Below are positions 107 to 31,033 of a stretch of DNA of 64,000 bases, piece after piece (the first letter of the stretch is position 1; every line of letters begins with the position of its first letter). A program made the position numbers and the translations under genes. Under the pieces are notes generated by a model. That model was not told the origin of the DNA and did not search any database. It saw only the letters and a program-made list of their open reading frames with translations. Source of the stretch: Siniperca chuatsi (taxonomy: Eukaryota; Chordata; Actinopteri; Centrarchiformes; Sinipercidae). The stretch is from NCBI RefSeq assembly GCF_020085105.1, contig NC_058056.1, positions 20,136,429 to 20,200,428 of the forward strand. The letters run 5' to 3'.

Positions 107-13611
<13,505 letters not shown>

Positions 13612-15047: not shown

Positions 15048-18000
15048 ATGGATTTGACTCGGTTGGCTGTGGATGCTGGTCAGTTCGTCAACCGGGCTGT
15101 TCAGGTAAAAATACCACCAGAAAAATAAATACTTTTACTCGAGGTTAACATTAACGTTAGAATTTGCTAACGTTAACTAGTAAATAAAATGCTTGTGGTC
15201 GCGGTTTATTAATATTACCATAAATGACGATGTTAGGACACCGAGTCACAGTCCATAACGATAGTATAACGATAACATAAAAATGCATAGCGGTTAGTTC
15301 AACAAGTCTTTATGTTTATAAGTGTTATTCTGTAATTCCGCTCCAGTACACGGGGGAGAGTCTTGGCCAGGCACACAAGACAGAGTTGGACCCCGGGCTG
15401 GAGGAGCTCCTGGCCCGGACAGACGCCACCAAAACCTGGACAGACCAGATAATCTCCCAGACTGAGGTTTTACTGCAGCCCAACCCCGGTGAGAGACTGT
15501 AAATTGTTTATTTATTCGTATTTATTTAAGTTGTCTGCAGGTCCTGAAAGTTTTTATATGTCTGGAATTCAGTTGAACACTCACAAGTCCTTAATTTATG
15601 AAGTCTTGATTTAAAAAAGCCACGTTACTAAATGTCATATCTGTTTTTGTCAGAATGAGTTGATGTCTTAATTAAGTCATTGCACTGACCCTTAGCTAAT
15701 AAGCAGTACTTACATCCCCAATATACTGTATTGGCAAAACGCCTGTTTTTCTGTAGATGAACCAAACTTCCTGTCTTATATGTGGAGATAAATTATCTAC
15801 CAGTATTTATGTATATTAATTAAAAAGATTGGTGGGGTTGTCACTTCAATGAGAATTCATATGAACTAATTAAAAACAAAATATTTCCTACATATGATAA
15901 TTGTACATTTAGTATGTTGTACTGTACATGTAGATAATTAATTGGCCAAATATTTTGTCCTGATAAACACCATCTTCATGTTTGCGCCAAACCACAACCA
16001 GTGGTAGACAACAAGTGGGTTCTAGCCATTATGGTCTATATAAAACCACTGAATAATGACTATGAATCTTTACCTCTGGGACCCAGTATTTCAGCTCTGT
16101 TTGCCCTCCTACAATAAATACATCTCCTGTGTGCTCTTCTGTTTGCTTTGACTTTAATGGCCTGTTCAGATAAATAGGGATGGTTATTTTTTTGCCTGTT
16201 TGAATTACCTCCGCTAATAGAATTATGAGTGGACGTGATCTGTAATCTATCAAATAAAGGCACCATTCAGCTGCCAGAAATAATAATCTCATATGTTTAT
16301 TCCTCGAGGATATATTTGCAGATCATGTCTTGTTTATCTACCAACAAGGGCTTTTAGTCTCTCTGAAGAATCATTTTTGTTTACCTTAGGTATACCTCAT
16401 GGGCTTATGGTTATGACCAGCAGTTTGCAAGCAGCTGCCTACTGTTTTGTTTCACATTATTTTTATAAAATGTCAGTTTTCAATGCTTGTCCTAGTAGAA
16501 AACAGTATTAAACATATGCAGGAGATTAAGTAGAATGTTTAGTGATATGTTAATGGCATGCTTTGACTATTAAATCCTCCTTTTAACCTGCAGTATCCTG
16601 ACACCTGTTTTTGACACCCACCCTAAGCTGTGAGGTATTTGTTTGTGTGCTCGGGTCAGACATTAAGAAGTTATTTGTATTAGCCCAAATGCATCTCCTG
16701 AACTAATATAAAAATTTGAAATAAATTGTCAGTGGCTTTTTAGAAAAGATAACTCTTGAACCAGAATTGAGCTCTATGATCCCTGCTGAGCAGGAGCACG
16801 TTTAGAGGACCGGCTGTATGAGCATCTGGATTGGAGCGTCCCACCTCGGCCTCGAGCACATGAGATACTGGGAGACCAAATGATCCAGGCTGGGCTGGAG
16901 ATGGGAGCCAATACACCCTATGGTGAGTATACATTAATGTGGATAATCTTTCTTTAACATGGATATGTTGAAATGTTGTCAGTGTGGATACTTTTTAGAC
17001 AGCGGTATGTTTTGTGTTCAGGAACGGCACTGCTCAGGTGTGGAGAGGCTCAGAAGCATCTTGGCGAGGCAGAGAGGAAGTTTGTCCAAAGCACCAACAT
17101 CCACTTTCTCACCCCTCTGAGAACTTTCACTGAGGGGGAATACAGGGCCATACAGGTAACACACACACAAACGCATGCACACACCCATCACCATTATGAC
17201 TGTGGCACTTAATTGTATGTTTTGGATGTCACATTCTAAGTAATTGCTTCTCTAATCTCTTTCTTTGTTCTTTTGTTCATGCTCAGCCTGTTGTTTATGA
17301 ATTGTTTGTATACTTAACATGGTTTTCAAAAAGTGTGTCTGTGTGTGTTCATAGGATGAGCGCAGGATGTTGGTGAATAAACGTTTGGACTTGGACATAG
17401 CTAACACCAGACTAAGGAAAGCCCATGAGGCTGACCAAGAGGCCAGAGTGAGTTACAGGGTCTTGAACTTCACTTACAGACATCACCTTTAAATACACAT
17501 CAGTACATCATACCTGGATCAATCCAAAAACATATAATATTATTATTATTATTATGTATATTATATAATACATATATTATAGTAGTACATATATTATCTT
17601 TTCATTTCACCTTTATGCTTTTTCTTTGTTCTTTGTCAGAATCTGAATGCAAACCCGCTGGACGTCGACTACTTGTCTCATGTCTCCTACATGTTCAGCT
17701 TCCTGCGTGTTAAATGGCTAAAGGTCAGTGACGCCAAAGGGACATGAATATTGACAGGCACAGCTGAACTTGGTTTGGTCATTAAGTCATTTGTCCTCCT
17801 CTGTCTCTCTCTTCCAATCAGATGTGGGCTCAGGAAATCTCTCAGGTGAGTTCATGCTTACCTTTGCATGCACACAGGATCTGATATAAATATTCTTCAT
17901 GCTGTAATAGAGGAAGACTATTTTGACACTGCCAGCAATTATAGAATTGAGTATGGTCCTGTTATTTAGTAGTTTCCATTGTTTAGTTAATTTAGACTTA

Positions 18001-18086
18001 AGCCCTTCAGGAATTTGGTTTTTGCTAATGTGAAAATGTGAAATTTTCAGAAAAAAGCTGAATAATTAGAAAGACCATAAAAGACA

Positions 18087-18129
<43 letters not shown>

Positions 18130-20114
18130 GCAGAGATGGAGCTGAGGATCTGTCAGACTCTGTTCGACCGACAGTCAGAAATTACAAGACAAGTTGCGGA
18201 AGGAATCAGCAACACTCACGTATGTGCACACAAACACACATATATAAAGATAGAAAATAAGATTCAGTTATGTCTCAAGCTTGGTAAGTGTGTGTATTAT
18301 TGTATTGCTAGGTTGTTGTTGTTTTGTTTTTTTGCAACAATTGTAACATGAACTATATATATACATATACTAGCAAAACTCTTTTTCTGTTTTAGAAAAT
18401 AGATACAATAAAACTTACTTACCAATTGGTCATTCAATACCTCCTCAAATAGAGAGAATCCAATCTGTAAAAATGCCATTTTATCAATAAATAAATTACC
18501 TTCATTTGTTTTTATTTTATGTTCTCTATTTTTTTTTTTTTTGTTGTTGTTGTTGTTGTTGTTGTTTTAATGCAAACTATTTACGTTGTTCCATATCTTT
18601 TGTGTTGTGTTGGGGTTTTGTTATGTTTTTTTCCCAGAGCAACCACATGCAGAGCCTGACTGACTTTGTGGAGGTTCAGGCCTGTTACTTCCACCAGTGC
18701 AACCAACATGCTCAGGAGCTTCAGAAACAGCTGGCCAGGTCTGTATGTCTGGATTACAACACTTAAAGACCAAATCTTTATAGGATTAAAATAATGCATG
18801 GAAGTCCCTCATTGCTTCCTTATACTATTTGGAAACACCATCATGGGTTTTAATTTTTTATGCTTTAGATTTTTTATCTGAATTAAGAATTAATTTTTCT
18901 CACGCAGCACTACCAAGTTACAATTCCCAGCTGTCCATTGAAAACCATGTACCTCCAATTATGGTGATTTTGATTAAGTTTTTTATGGGTTTCTTTCTAC
19001 TATTTCTTAATCTATATAAACAATTTAAAACCCATCAGATTATCAAAAAAATGCAATATCACAAAACTGATAACAGGAATGTTTTTAAAAGCTCATAAAC
19101 ATTGATATTTTGGACTTATGGGATTTTCACAGGACACTGACAAAATGTACTTTCAATGAGCTTTCATTAAGGTCACAGGCATTTTTATTTGTTTGCTCAG
19201 GAAAGAAGGAAAATGGTTTAAAACTATTTTCAACAGAAAGGATAAATTCAGAAGCCAAATACCACTCTAAAATGCATGTAGTACAATCCTTTTTTTAAGT
19301 CAAAGCTAAAACCCAATTAGCAAAAAGATCTAGATGTATTTGTAGAAGCCAGGACATCTGGTCTCACAGAGAGCAGAAGACTATTGAGAATAATTTTTAA
19401 AGCAAGTAATTTTTTTCACATCAACGTCGTTATGATTTTGTTTCTCCTTGCAGCATTCCAGCAGTCCTCTGCTCCAATAACTGGCAGTCAGCAATTAGCA
19501 ATGCAGTTAATCAGCCATCTACAAGCAACCATGTAGCCAATGAGCCCGCTGGGTTAAATCAGGTCACTCCAATTCCTATATTTGACCACCACCTTCCAGA
19601 CTTCGACCAGGACTCGTGGACTGCAAATCCACCGCCTGGAACTGAAAAAACAACTGATTCCTCTGTTACCACACAGCCACCTGATCAGACAAATAATAAC
19701 AATAACAACAACACCTTCTTTACTGATGGCCAGGCAACCAGTCACTGTTCAGCGGCCGACCAAGCATTTGATCATGTCTGTACATCAAATTCAGACAGTC
19801 ACCCAAAAGATCAGATCTCAGTACTCGGCAGAACAGTCAGCACACCAACCAACAGAGCAACAGCTGCAATAACCAATGATGCAGGTATTCTGAGAACAAC
19901 AGCTTCCCCACCTTCTGGACTTAGTGGAACCTCAAACGAGTCTCAGACAGCAAATGCAGTCGCTAGTGAGACCGTAACAACCAGTGCCATGGCTATTGAG
20001 ACCTTGACAACCAATGGCATGGCTGCTGAGCCCCAAACAACCAATGAAACCGCAAGAGAGCTGCCCACCATTAATGGAGAAGATGTCCAGCAGTCATCAA
20101 CTGTGGTTCAGTAG
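15048..20114 (+). CDS. Endophilin-B-like N-BAR protein lacking the SH3 domain
   Basis: Endophilin B proteins (SH3GLB1/2) bend membranes with an N-BAR domain and recruit partners with a C-terminal SH3. Ten exons join in frame: 15048-15104, 15347-15488, 16794-16922, 17022-17155, 17355-17447, 17640-17723, 17822-17845, 18130-18219, 18638-18738 and 19454-20114 (TAG 20112-20114), giving 504 residues. Residues 1-19 (MDLTRLAVDAGQFVNRAVQ) match the amphipathic helix of SH3GLB1. Residues 20-285 follow the BAR domain closely (LGQAHKTELD, TEVLLQPNPGARLEDR, LTPLRTFTEGEYRAI, NKRLDLDIANTRL, FDRQSEITRQVAEGI). The tail, residues 286-504, starts like endophilin B (SIPAVLCSNNW against SFPSNYLSNNN) but is then Thr/Asn/Ser/Ala-rich and stops with no SH3. 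No SH3 was seen further downstream. It is either an SH3-less paralogue or a lineage-specific form of sh3glb1 or sh3glb2, so I assign no symbol. Confidence 0.9.
18091..18127. repeat. (TG)18 microsatellite at an endophilin 3' splice site
   Basis: The TG run continues into TAG before the exon at 18130, so this acceptor too lacks a pyrimidine tract. Confidence 0.95.
19962..20051 (+). repeat. Three 30-bp coding tandem repeats in the endophilin-like tail
   Basis: Units 19962-19991, 19992-20021 and 20022-20051 encode ASETVTTSAM, AIETLTTNGM and AAEPQTTNET, a ten-residue pattern of A-x-E-x-x-T-T-[SN]-x-x. They are in frame and sit near the C-terminus of the last exon. A run of seven Asn codons (AAT/AAC) lies earlier in the same exon at about 19692-19712. 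Confidence 0.9.
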
Positions 20115-21230
20115 AGACTAATGTCTGGCGGGGGATGTGACACCAGGCCAAAGCCATGTCAGCTGGGACTTAACTTTGATTGGAGCTTCAGCTGATTTAG
20201 ACCAGTGGTATTTGGCATTGTAGACCTGAGAATACAGACTGTATTAGAAAGGAACAGATACACAATCATTGGTGTGGTACAACATGTGGTATGGTTAAAA
20301 AAACATTAATTAATCCATTAGGGAAGATAATGTGAAGTGGTTGTAACGTGAAATAGTGCCACAATCATTTTAGCCTTTAGCCATATTCATATATTATTCA
20401 TGTTGTATGAAAATTATGACTTGAGTATCAGTCACAGTCAGATTGTGAAAAGTTGTTTTCATTCTGTGAAACTAAATCTTTATTTTTACATTTAGCTAAA
20501 TGAGAGAACTAATGAAGCTTTGTGCCAAGTGTATGTGTATATAATTGTTGGTGTGAAAGCATCACTTCAAGTGTGAGTGTTTCTGTCTGTGTCCATGTCT
20601 GTCAGCAACCCATGTGCACTCACTTATGTTTACAGCCTCCCCAAACCTGTGACAAGAGAGGTGTATGTACATGTATGTAACTCTGCCACCTCTTGACTCA
20701 TGTTACTAGAAGCTGAGGTCATTTTCCACATGAAACATGTTACTTACGTGTGTCGGTGTGACAAAACACCAAGCTGAACAGGACCTTTATGCTGTAGCAT
20801 GGTGCAAAATATGTTTCCTCATACACACTCTGGGTGTTTCCCCCTACACACAGTCAAAACATTTATTCACTTTTATCCTTTTACCCCCTAAAAGCCCCCA
20901 CTAGGTGAAATGGGTAGAGGTTTCCATGTCCAGATGTTGTTAATTTTCTACGTGAGGGCAGCCCTGCTCTACTGTGGTGTGGGTCCACTCTGGGGACATA
21001 TTAACGTAGCAGAGTACTGATGTAATCGCCCACCAGCTCTATGCTGCTCTACGCGTTTGTCCCAATACTTAAAGATGTGTGTGTATGGATAACTACAGTA
21101 TTCACAATTCAGGTTGCTGCCAGTTTTAAACTGTGTGTACAGTCATAATTCAGTCACATGCTGTATATTGAGTTGATGTCAGTGCGAGGTTGGAGTTTTC
21201 ACTTGATTCATGTGAAGATGTGGAAATAAA
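20115..21230 (+). terminator. 3' UTR and polyadenylation signal of the endophilin-B-like gene
   Basis: AATAAA at 21225-21230, about 1.1 kb after the TAG, followed by GT-rich sequence. The UTR holds no second ORF and no SH3-coding segment. Confidence 0.7.
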
Positions 21231-25759: not shown

Positions 25760-27436
25760 ATGCATGTGTTCAGGATCTGGCGTGTGCTGTGTGTGCTTGG
25801 CTTCGTGGGTGCATCCTTGTGTGTGAATGAGGTTGAGTATGAAGGGAACTACGCAGACAACTATGACAACAAGATCTCACAGAACCAGCAGGAGGGTGAG
25901 TTTTGTTTATTTGTCCTTTTGTCTCTTTTGTTCCCAGCTTGTTTGAACAGATGGCTCATTGTGAAGAATTTCTTCTCAGCTGCCATGCTTGTTGTCATTA
26001 AGCCAATAAAACCATTCTTATGTGTTTTGAAATTTGTCAACGCACATTAATTTATTAGTTTTGGAAAGTAAGCAAAGTTGTCCCGCAAGGGTCCACTTGT
26101 ATTCCACTTGTATTCACTATATACATTAAAAATAACATCTCTGCCAGTCATGGAGTGGCATTGTACATTATTTATTCTAAAAGTTCTATTGGAAAAGCTG
26201 CCTAACTATCTCTGCTCTCTGATCACATCAAAATAGAGTAACTATAATGTCAGGTTTTCATTCATTTCATTTTAACTTTAACTGAAACGGAGCTAGGGAA
26301 AACTGGTTTTAAGTACTATGCTTTGAAATTAAAATAAAGATTAAAATATCCCAAGTATACTGAATGGTACATGTAATTGTTTTCATTAACGTGGAATCAT
26401 TGTATCGCATGTGTAAATTATAGGTTGTAAATTTTTGTGTGTTTGTCTATGTTTGTACTGTATGTTTAGTCAGTAACACTTAATAATACATCCTGGGATT
26501 TACAGTGTAACTTTGTTGTATGAACCAATAAAATACTTACTGGTTCTTACTGGTACTTAAATGTAGGTACTGTGGAAGAAACCAGTACTATGGGGAACAA
26601 GGTGCTAACAATTGGTCCCTGTACGAACTGGTAGTACCTGATTCATTCAGTGAAGTTCCACTGTAAAACATTGTATTGTACTAAATAAAATAAATGTTCG
26701 GATTTTGGTTATGTTTGGTTTATATTAATGTTAATAACTTTTCAACTTACTATGGGACTGTATAATTGATTAATCTCTGTGGTTGTTGTCTACAGGGGAA
26801 ACTCCAACCACACCATGCCAGGCTGCAGATTTCTCCCGCTGGGACACGCTTTTCATTGCTCTGGAGGACTCCCACATGAGGCAGAACATGCTGCTGGAGT
26901 CTCTGGAGCAATGCTGTGGAGGAATGGTCTCTCTCACGACCCGGGTGGACAAGCTGGCTAAGGAGACATGCCAGCAGTGTCTGTCCAGCCTGGAGTCAGC
27001 ATGCACGGCGCAAGCAGATCAGGCGAGTGTCAGGCTGCAACAAGGCTTGGTGGAGCTCCGGGAAGAGGAAGCAGAGAGGGAGAGGAGGTTAAACACTACC
27101 TTGCAGCAGCTCCTGCACAGTGGCCATGAGGGGAATGCCCGGCTGAAACGGCTGGAGGAAGGTAGAGGCCACAGAGTGGTGCCATCGGGAGCAGCAGACA
27201 GCAGGATGGGACACCAACCAACACAGAGACCCAGGAGTTTAGGGGCAGCATTTGGCTTGGGGATGAAGCCATTCCCATCTGTCCTGAAGGAGCAGGAAGT
27301 GACTTCACCGCTGGACATGGCCACAATGGAAAGGGCCCTGGTTGCCATAGCAACAGAGCTGCAGAAGGTTCACCTGCAGCTGAACAGAGTGATAGAGCAG
27401 GCAGGAACATTGAGGAAGGACAGAGGCGACACATGA
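25760..27436 (+). CDS. PTX3-like secreted protein with N-terminal domain only (no pentraxin domain)
   Basis: Long pentraxin PTX3 is a secreted pattern-recognition protein with a disulphide-linked coiled-coil N-terminal half and a C-terminal pentraxin domain. Exon 1 (25760-25895) starts at the ATG that opens a signal peptide (MHVFRIWRVLCVLGFVGASL); an in-frame ATG at 25625 would bury it. The mature start, EVEYEGNYADNYDN, resembles PTX3's acidic Tyr/Asp/Asn stretch. Exon 2 (26796-27436) begins TPTTPCQAADFSRWDTLFIA, which matches PTX3's PTPCDCGQEHSEWDKLFIM, then a Glu/Leu-rich probable coiled coil and Cys at 53, 85, 86, 104, 107 and 115. The frame ends at TGA with 258 residues where PTX3 would splice to its pentraxin exon. 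No pentraxin signature (HxCxSW) was seen downstream, and a polyadenylation signal follows 23 bases later. It may be a truncated paralogue or a degraded gene with an intact frame. Confidence 0.8.
26060..26245 (+). mobile_element. LINE reverse transcriptase fragment in the ptx3-like intron
   Basis: The + strand translates in part to VVPQGSTCIPLVFTIYI-NNISASHGVALYIIYS, which recalls the GVPQGSILGPLLF-YINNI segment upstream of the RT catalytic motif in fish LINEs. It is short and broken. It would precede the RT segment found at 22.5-23.0 kb in a full element, but it lies on the opposite strand. Confidence 0.55.
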
Positions 27437-27458
27437 ATTGCCCAGAAGGGAAAAAAAT

Positions 27459-27464
27459 AATAAA
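27459..27464 (+). terminator. Polyadenylation signal of the ptx3-like gene
   Basis: AATAAA 23 bases after the stop, with a second AATAAA at 27611-27616. Either would end the transcript before any pentraxin-coding exon. Confidence 0.65.
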
Positions 27465-28214
27465 AGATTGAATGGGGACAGTGATAATGATTTTGCACAC
27501 ATACTCAGTTTTCAATGGTGTTTTAAGGGGCCTTTTTTTATATGTGAGCTTGTTTTTGTCTGGTGACAATGAATTTAAATGTACCATAAATGTTGTAGTT
27601 TACTATAATGAATAAAAACGTATTAATCAACCTAATCAGCCTCATGGAAAGGTTTCCTCCCTCCTCCCACACAGCAAACAACTCATTTTCAGAGCTGCAC
27701 ACTTATGTGTTCATGCACATGCCTACACTTTCATTTGTCTGAGTTAGTGCATGTGCTCTATACTTTCCTGCAAATGCCAGTGTTAACACCACTACCTCAA
27801 TGTTTGTGAAGTTGTGGAGATGTCTGCAAATACCGACAAATACAAGAAAGTGTGTGAGAGGTTTTGGATTGTGTTTAATTCTGGGCAGGCCTCACCCTCT
27901 CATTAGCTTCTTTAAGAGTCTGTACGCATAGAGGCCACAACTTACAATGCTCCGAATGTTTATGATTTATGAAACTTTGCCAGAGCTATTACACTGACCA
28001 CACAGTGGCTGGTGTTGGAGGTACTTTTTGTGTATTATGTACAGTTCGGCCTTCACACTGTATTATGTACGGTTTCTGTGTGATGGTCCTTGGCTCCAGA
28101 TCACCTCTTTATTCATTCAAGTATTTATACTTTTGTTTTGTGGAGTTTTATTAGAGCTAGAGGGGAAGTTGGGCAAATGAGAAAGAAGAAAGAGATTTTG
28201 TACATGGTTTTGTT

Positions 28215-29675: not shown

Positions 29676-31033
29676 CTATTTGATGGGCGAGTCCAGAATC
29701 TCCTCATACTCCTCCCTTTGGCGCCGCCCTCCCCCACGAGAGGGTAGCAGCTTCATCGCTACCAGCCAACCGACACTCAGTATGACCATCACGTTCCCAA
29801 CGACCTCCGGCGCAGTGGGAGCCAATGGCAGCACGACCAGATGCAGCAGCATGGCAACAGGTACCTCCAGGCTCTGAGAGGCGGAGACCAGAGCCGGGTG
29901 GAGTCGGGTGAGGGCATGCGTCATCCCCAGAAAGGCTGCTACCGAGCAGGCAACCAGGCCCAGAACCAGGCCCCAAGCTGGGGCACTCATAGGCCAGGAC
30001 CAGCCCTCCTGGAGCAGAACCAAGGAGGCCGGGGCTAGCAGGCAGCCCGTCCAGCTTACTGTGAACAAAGCAGTGCCCACTCCCACCCTCTCCTTCAGGG
30101 AACGATACCCAACCAGTGCCAGAGCCATCCACAGCCCTGCAAGAGCCGAAAGAGACCAGCCAAACGCACCCCTCCAGAACACAACCGGGTCAGTTGGTGA
30201 ATCTGAATTGCTCTCGTCAGCTGTGGGAAGTAACACAAGCCCCAAACCACACAGTCCTGCAGCTATGGTGATCCCATCGGCCAATCCCAGCCTCTCCTCC
30301 AGGAGCAGGAAGGCCAGGGTTGCTGACAGCGCTGTGGTTGCCAGGCGCCAGGTCGTCGTGCCGTTTCCAGGAGAGACGAAGGTTAAGGAGGAGTAGGCGC
30401 AGCAGAGAGAGAGAGAGTAGGCGATGCCGTAACAGAGCAGACGTAGACGATAGCCCTCTGGTCCAAAAGGGTTCTCCCCCCTGTGCAGTGGTACAGCCAC
30501 AGAGAGGAGCTGGAAGATGGACCGAACCAAGAGCAGAAACAGGGAGCCCAGGCTGAAGCGTTCAGAGGCCACGCGGGTCAGAACGATCAAACAGCCGTGA
30601 GCCAGTGCTGCACCAAGCAGCCCCACCCAGGTGAGCCGAGACGCAGAGACAGATGCCTCCCCAAAACTGGCCAGCTGTTCCCCTACCCCTCTCCCAGATC
30701 CCTTTGTTGCTCTCGCTCCCCCTTCACTCCCATCTCCTCCCCCGGCAGCCTGAGGTTTGTTAGTCGTGTCCTTGTCTTTGTCTTTGGAACCAAACAGAGT
30801 CAAAGGCCACCTCTTGCTCTCCGTCAGCTGTTTCCTGTCTGACGTCTCCTCCAGGAAGGAGCCAAAGTCCTCAAAAGATGGAGCGTCATCGTAGCCTTCG
30901 TCCCCAGGCTGGGGGAAGTGTGTGTGTACTCCAGGTTGAGGGGAGTAGGGGGTGTGTGTGTGTATTTGGCTGTGACGGTGTGAGGGTGGATCTTTACTCT
31001 CTTCTTAGAGCTCAGGAGGTGAGTGGACTCCAT
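29676..31033 (-). CDS. slc35g2: SLC35G2 (TMEM22) DMT/EamA-family membrane protein, with an apparent frameshift near the N-terminus
   Basis: SLC35G2 is a predicted ten-helix drug/metabolite-transporter-superfamily protein of unknown substrate. From the ATG at 31031-31033 the frame reads MESTHLLSSKKRVKIHPHTV, as in human SLC35G2 (KKRVKIHPNTV). It then leaves frame near a CA run at 30918-30928, and the expected continuation QPGDEGYDDAPSFEDFGSF is two bases out of step. That second frame runs unbroken to the TAG (29676-29678) with the family's signature segments (ALAHGCLIVLTR, GPEGYRLRLLCYGI, NGTTTWR, HPALVSASQSLEV) and the identical C-terminus EILDSPIK. One CA unit fewer would give one frame of 451 codons; human is 412 residues. 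The coding part is one exon, as in human. An acceptor with a good pyrimidine tract (exon start 31052) precedes the ATG. No in-frame ATG precedes the first membrane helices in the second frame, so a real lesion would be damaging. Confidence 0.9.

Follow-up and report, generated by a model that had tools for sequence, protein, structure and literature searches.

A predicted fourth endophilin-B gene of Siniperca chuatsi with a Thr/Asn-rich terminal exon and no detected SH3 domain

BAR proteins without an SH3 domain are known from the amphiphysin family, where BIN2 and BIN3 lack it. Endophilins, in a portion of one published source, are described as proteins that carry a BAR domain plus an SH3 domain (PMC10728279). 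For endophilin B1, one section of a study describes an interaction between the linker-SH3 region and H0, reports that its truncation raises tubulation, and puts forward a role for the linker itself in contacts within the molecule (PMC11799418). Heterodimers of mammalian endophilins B1 and B2 are documented in cells in an excerpt of another paper (PMC4845016), and the mammalian Bif-1b/c microexons 6 and 7 are located within the N-BAR domain in an excerpt of a third (PMC5891588). In the literature that we searched, we did not find sh3glb1b or a teleost duplicate of a BAR-domain endophilin, and we met the name sh3glb3 only as the name of an antibody. Subscription journals and database annotation were outside the scope of this search and may list such genes.

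We analyzed a window of 64 kb from the genome of Siniperca chuatsi (C15:20136429-20200428). From the DNA alone, and with exon borders placed by hand, we predicted a gene of ten exons on the + strand (15048-20114) that encodes a 504-aa protein. All introns have GT-AG borders, and the phases are consistent. We refer to this gene as the window gene or the C15 gene, and its features are given in Table 1.

Table 1. Predicted features of the window gene (positions within the window).
Feature	Position	Strand	Description
Exon 1	15048..15104	+	H0-type amphipathic segment (MDLTRLAVDAGQFVNRAVQ)
Exon 2, N-BAR	15347..15488	+	142 nt, length identical in four endophilin-B genes
Exon 3, N-BAR	16794..16922	+	129 nt, length identical in four endophilin-B genes
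Exon 4, N-BAR	17022..17155	+	134 nt, length identical in four endophilin-B genes
Exon 5, N-BAR	17355..17447	+	93 nt, length identical in four endophilin-B genes
Exon 6	17640..17723	+	84 nt, in frame (skipping possible); position matches a 63-nt candidate exon at C18
Exon 7, microexon MWAQEISQ	17822..17845	+	24 nt; same length as candidates LWSEEVEK (C5) and LLSEEVDK (C18)
Exon 8, N-BAR	18130..18219	+	90 nt, length identical in four endophilin-B genes
Exon 9, N-BAR end	18638..18738	+	101 nt, length identical in four endophilin-B genes
Exon 10, terminal, tail and stop codon	19454..20114	+	located where the paralogues have their linker exon
30-bp tandem repeat, 2.8 copies	19962..20046	+	10-residue repeat ETVTTSAMAI/ETLTTNGMAA/EPQTTNETAR
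Poly(A) signal AATAAA	21225..21230	+	1.1 kb past the stop codon

Three other genes were seen in the window. Upstream of the window gene lies the end of an ATR gene (12716-13611, + strand), with matches to the kinase and FATC domains. Downstream is a PTX3-like exon (26774-27611, + strand) that matches PTX3 8s50 with an E value of 8.4e-07, has a stop at 27436 and AATAAA at 27459 and 27611, and has one weak relative in the genome (C7:11626085, E 0.003). A tblastn search of the window for the pentraxin part of human PTX3, with an approximate query, gave nothing significant (best E 1.1), and the PTX3-like gene may be a second neighboring gene lacking its C-terminal domain. Further downstream, on the - strand, is a single-exon EamA transporter gene (29676-31004), which we take to be SLC35G2-like and which is 49% identical to its only other match in the genome (C19:16329715-16330884).

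The original prediction had read the N-terminal half of the window protein as an endophilin B, and our comparisons bear this out. We found that residues 14 to 284 match Pfam BAR (E 2.5e-52). Human endophilin B1 (6up6, E 2.6e-84) was the best of seven solved relatives, and the best endophilin A among them had an E value of 1.8e-16. The N-BAR is 54 to 55% identical to each of the four other endophilin Bs (55% to human endophilin B1) and 27.5% identical to human A1, so it is nearer endophilin B than endophilin A. The window protein therefore carries the endophilin-type N-BAR domain of the family.

We searched the genome (718.8 Mb, 65 contigs) with human endophilin B1 as the query; of 50 scored candidates, 41 matched at E values up to 1. 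Four loci with endophilin-B N-BAR exons emerged, namely, C19, C5, C18, and C15 (the window gene). The N-BAR at the C19 locus, near 9.89 Mb, is 84% identical to that of human B1, and we therefore identify the C19 gene as sh3glb1. The N-BARs at the C5 locus, near 6.6 Mb, and the C18 locus, near 26.6 Mb, are 82% identical to each other; these genes are probably sh3glb2 copies. Among themselves, the four other endophilin Bs show 68 to 84% N-BAR identity. We found that exons 2, 3, 4, 5, 8, and 9 have equal lengths at all four loci, where the paralogue exons were sought as candidates of nine preset lengths and their borders were chosen by protein likeness. Two paralogue exons had a second candidate each, which we set aside by the same likeness. 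With these six lengths, the window gene has the exon-intron structure of an endophilin B. The 24-nt exon 7 was not found at C19 sh3glb1, though it is present in the window gene and, as candidates, at C5 and C18. Pattern searches for relatives gave no match among viral contigs and 22 hits among genome contigs, none of which was confirmed.

At three of the four loci (C19, C5, and C18), we found SH3-coding exons, one with the first half of the domain and the last with the second half. In contrast, no C-terminal SH3 domain of the endophilin family was found for the window gene within the 64 kb. When we scored six-frame pieces of at least 15 aa from the window with an HMM of four endophilin-B SH3 domains, the best piece reached 6.4 bits. 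The SH3 exons of the paralogues scored 42 to 80 bits when the model was built without their own sequences (without either copy in the case of C5 and C18). As a control for sensitivity, we searched for the six N-BAR exons of the window gene (30 to 47 aa) with models made from the other genes and recovered them at 39 to 81 bits, with best false matches of 5.6 to 14.5 bits. Thus, an SH3 domain as diverged as the N-BAR should be detectable; an SH3 half that had diverged far beyond this level could evade detection. The human B1 query gave six matches in the C15 gene, all within query residues 23 to 254, and none of these six, among the 41 matches at E values up to 1, covers residues 255 to 365. On these two counts, we rejected a hidden SH3 domain in the window or among the C15 matches. 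The claim that no SH3 exon follows the tail exon thus held up in the window under both controls.

The last exon encodes 220 residues, including a split codon, with T 33, S 25, A 23, and N 23. We found that it sits in the second longest of the 6,990 stop-to-stop stretches of the window. None of 5,000 first-order Markov copies of its 657 bases was open across all 219 codons, and the copies had a mean of 8.3 stops. This agrees with the original prediction of a terminal Thr/Asn/Ser/Ala-rich exon that ends in a stop, and the poly(A) signal expected past it is present, with AATAAA at 21225. The codon usage of the tail frame was equaled or exceeded in 47 of 2,000 random noncoding stretches, and that of the +1 frame was slightly higher. 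The tail matched no Pfam family at E values up to 0.1, and a search of the genome with it returned one match, the tail itself, among 10 scored candidates. Disorder-promoting residues make up 78% of the tail, and its charge-hydropathy value (0.432, against a line at 0.439) puts it barely on the disordered side. Among linear motifs, PxxP is absent from the tail, a clathrin box was not matched, and LPDFD and DSW are loose motif likenesses only. Having neither a detected SH3 domain nor a PxxP motif in its tail, the window protein would offer no such partner contacts.

The SH3 domain had been predicted to be replaced by the tail. The SH3 domain is indeed undetected and a Thr-rich tail is present, but the tail appears to be an extended linker and not a new domain. 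At C19, the linker exon is 235 nt long and ends within the SH3 domain, the first half of which lies at its end. The window exon at this place is 661 nt long and ends in a stop, and its acceptor phase is that of the C19 linker exon. Because the tail exon occupies the place of the linker exon of the paralogues, it looks like an extended linker rather than a newly pasted domain. This argument comes from position and phase, as the likeness in sequence is weak: of the first 14 residues of exon 10, 6 are common with human B1 and 5 with C19, and shuffled sequences did as well in 9 of 500 trials for human B1 and in 67 of 500 for C19. The C15 gene thus seems to end in what was once its linker exon and to have lost its SH3 parts. 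In the simplest history, the linker exon lengthened, partly by the 30-bp tandem repeat, and the SH3 parts disappeared.

We compared the chemistry of the N-BAR half with that of the four other endophilin Bs. The amphipathicity of H0 is kept (hydrophobic moment, 0.413 versus 0.419 in human B1), and its charge is 0 versus +2 in human B1. The window gene is not basic at 12 of the 33 basic positions common to the others and has lost 6 of their 35 acidic columns. Its N-BAR has a net charge of -10, compared with -3 to 0 in the four others and -6 in human endophilin A1. It keeps 107 of the 152 residues that are invariant in the others, including 40 of 59 hydrophobic ones. Fully invariant K/R columns were kept exactly in 13 of 21 cases versus 94 of 131 for other residues (p 0.44). 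Since K/R retention is no different from that of other residues, the loss of charge may be part of general divergence. The missing basic residues suggest that the protein binds membranes less strongly or under tighter regulation. They also speak against a protein that simply bends membranes all the time, as the original prediction would have it, although general divergence alone could account for them.

In trees, the window gene forms a long branch (0.82 to 0.83 changes per column, versus 0.05 to 0.14 in the other endophilin Bs). With human A1 as the outgroup, no placement of C15 was supported (support for C15 with the C5/C18 pair, 34/0). Without the outgroup, C15 fell between the two groups, with 68/70 support for C15 with C5/C18. 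A constraint of C15 and C19 to one clade was not rejected, with a p-AU of 0.18. Columns diagnostic for B1 versus B2 were B1-like in 6 cases, B2-like in 7, and neither in 13. Where C19 and human B1 differ, the window gene was like C19 in 10 columns, like human in 10, and like neither in 20. Among 22 polarized columns, 4 were common to C15 and C19, 0 to C15 and human, and 18 to neither. The lowest of three dS values belonged to C15-C19 in 246 of 300 bootstraps, with synonymous sites near saturation. Between C15 and C19, dN was 0.37 and dS was 1.5, the latter near saturation, as are the 4-fold sites. At E values up to 0.001, the SLC35G2-like gene beside the window gene matches one other place in the genome, which lies on C19 at a distance of 6.4 Mb from sh3glb1; the presence of this pair is a hint that the C15 and C19 endophilin-B genes are duplication partners. 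The C19 copy is presumably the canonical SLC35G2, judged against the human protein. The gene hs2st1, which we take to be a neighbor of human SH3GLB1, has copies on C6 and C13 and not on C15 or C19 and gives no support for the pairing. Each hint is weak alone. The window gene is probably the partner of C19 sh3glb1 from the teleost genome duplication, although this pairing is not certain. We give less weight to the alternative that it represents a third, ancient endophilin-B lineage that predates B1 and B2.

The reading that we prefer, which we hold at about even confidence, is that the window gene is a fast-evolving fourth endophilin-B gene whose linker exon turned terminal, whose SH3 domain was lost, and whose BAR-only product joins endophilin-B assemblies. 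We infer the expression, dimerization, membrane behavior, and antagonism of the protein. The H0 segment and N-BAR would be expected to dimerize, with a disordered Thr/Ser/Asn tail behind. The product would enter assemblies on intracellular membranes as a homodimer or as a heterodimer with an SH3-bearing endophilin B. The product would not be subject to the SH3-H0 autoinhibition that has been put forward for endophilin B1. It would recruit no SH3 ligands and so would dilute SH3 signaling in the coat, to which it would add a bulky disordered tail. Because the B1 linker is proposed to make intramolecular contacts, the long tail could still regulate the N-BAR. It is quite unlikely, though conceivable, that a teleost genome-duplication copy of sh3glb1 has come to specialize in an SH3-free role and, by means of its disordered tail and weakened basic surface, acts as a built-in brake on the endophilin-B coats of mitophagy or autophagy.

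Other explanations were weighed against this BAR-only assembly member. The window protein might be a natural antagonist that heterodimerizes with full-length endophilin B1 or B2 and blocks SH3-dependent steps. That B1/B2 heterodimers form in mammalian cells, according to an excerpt (PMC4845016), makes this idea reasonable; the undetected SH3 domain, the open N-BAR frame, and the retention of 40 of 59 invariant hydrophobic positions are consistent with it. However, at 54 to 55% identity to the other endophilin Bs, the protein may make homodimers only, and we consider antagonism unlikely. We also think it improbable that the gene is a decaying duplicate on its way to a pseudogene, with the SH3 loss and tail as drift of little function. 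The long branch, the 12 of 33 common basic positions gone, the 30-bp repeat within the tail, and a tail codon usage only moderately above that of random noncoding stretches all fit decay. Against it stand the open frame of all ten exons and their intact splice sites, the six exon lengths shared with the paralogues, a tail frame that stayed open where chance copies average 8.3 stops, and a dN of 0.37 versus a dS of 1.5 to C19, near saturation as that dS is. Finally, an undetected SH3 exon might be spliced on from within exon 10, so that a normal endophilin B is made too. Exon 10 does contain one donor-like GTRAG site, at 19966, but our search of the 43.9 kb of the window that follow it revealed no SH3 domain, and the paralogue introns at the linker place are about 0.57 to 1.4 kb; we regard this as extremely improbable.

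We concluded that, as judged from its sequence, the window gene is a real, unusual variant of the endophilin-B family with a putative function. It resembles endophilin B1 (SH3GLB1/Bif-1; here C19) in its H0, its N-BAR, six exon lengths, and the start of its linker, and, like the mammalian gene, it has in-frame exons inside the N-BAR. It differs from endophilin B1 in the undetected SH3 domain, the 220-aa tail, the N-BAR net charge of -10, and an identity of 55%. With endophilin B2 (SH3GLB2; here probably C5 and C18), it shares the six exon lengths and the 24-nt exon 7 candidates, but C5 and C18 both retain SH3, and the window gene is 54 to 55% identical to them. A BAR protein without a detected SH3 domain recalls BIN2 and BIN3, which show a similar loss in a different N-BAR family; the likeness is one of description. 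The window gene would be nature's equivalent of the delta-SH3 endophilin made in the laboratory for studies of autoinhibition. A natural loss of SH3 in an endophilin B would allow the endophilin-B tasks that depend on the SH3 domain to be identified in vivo.
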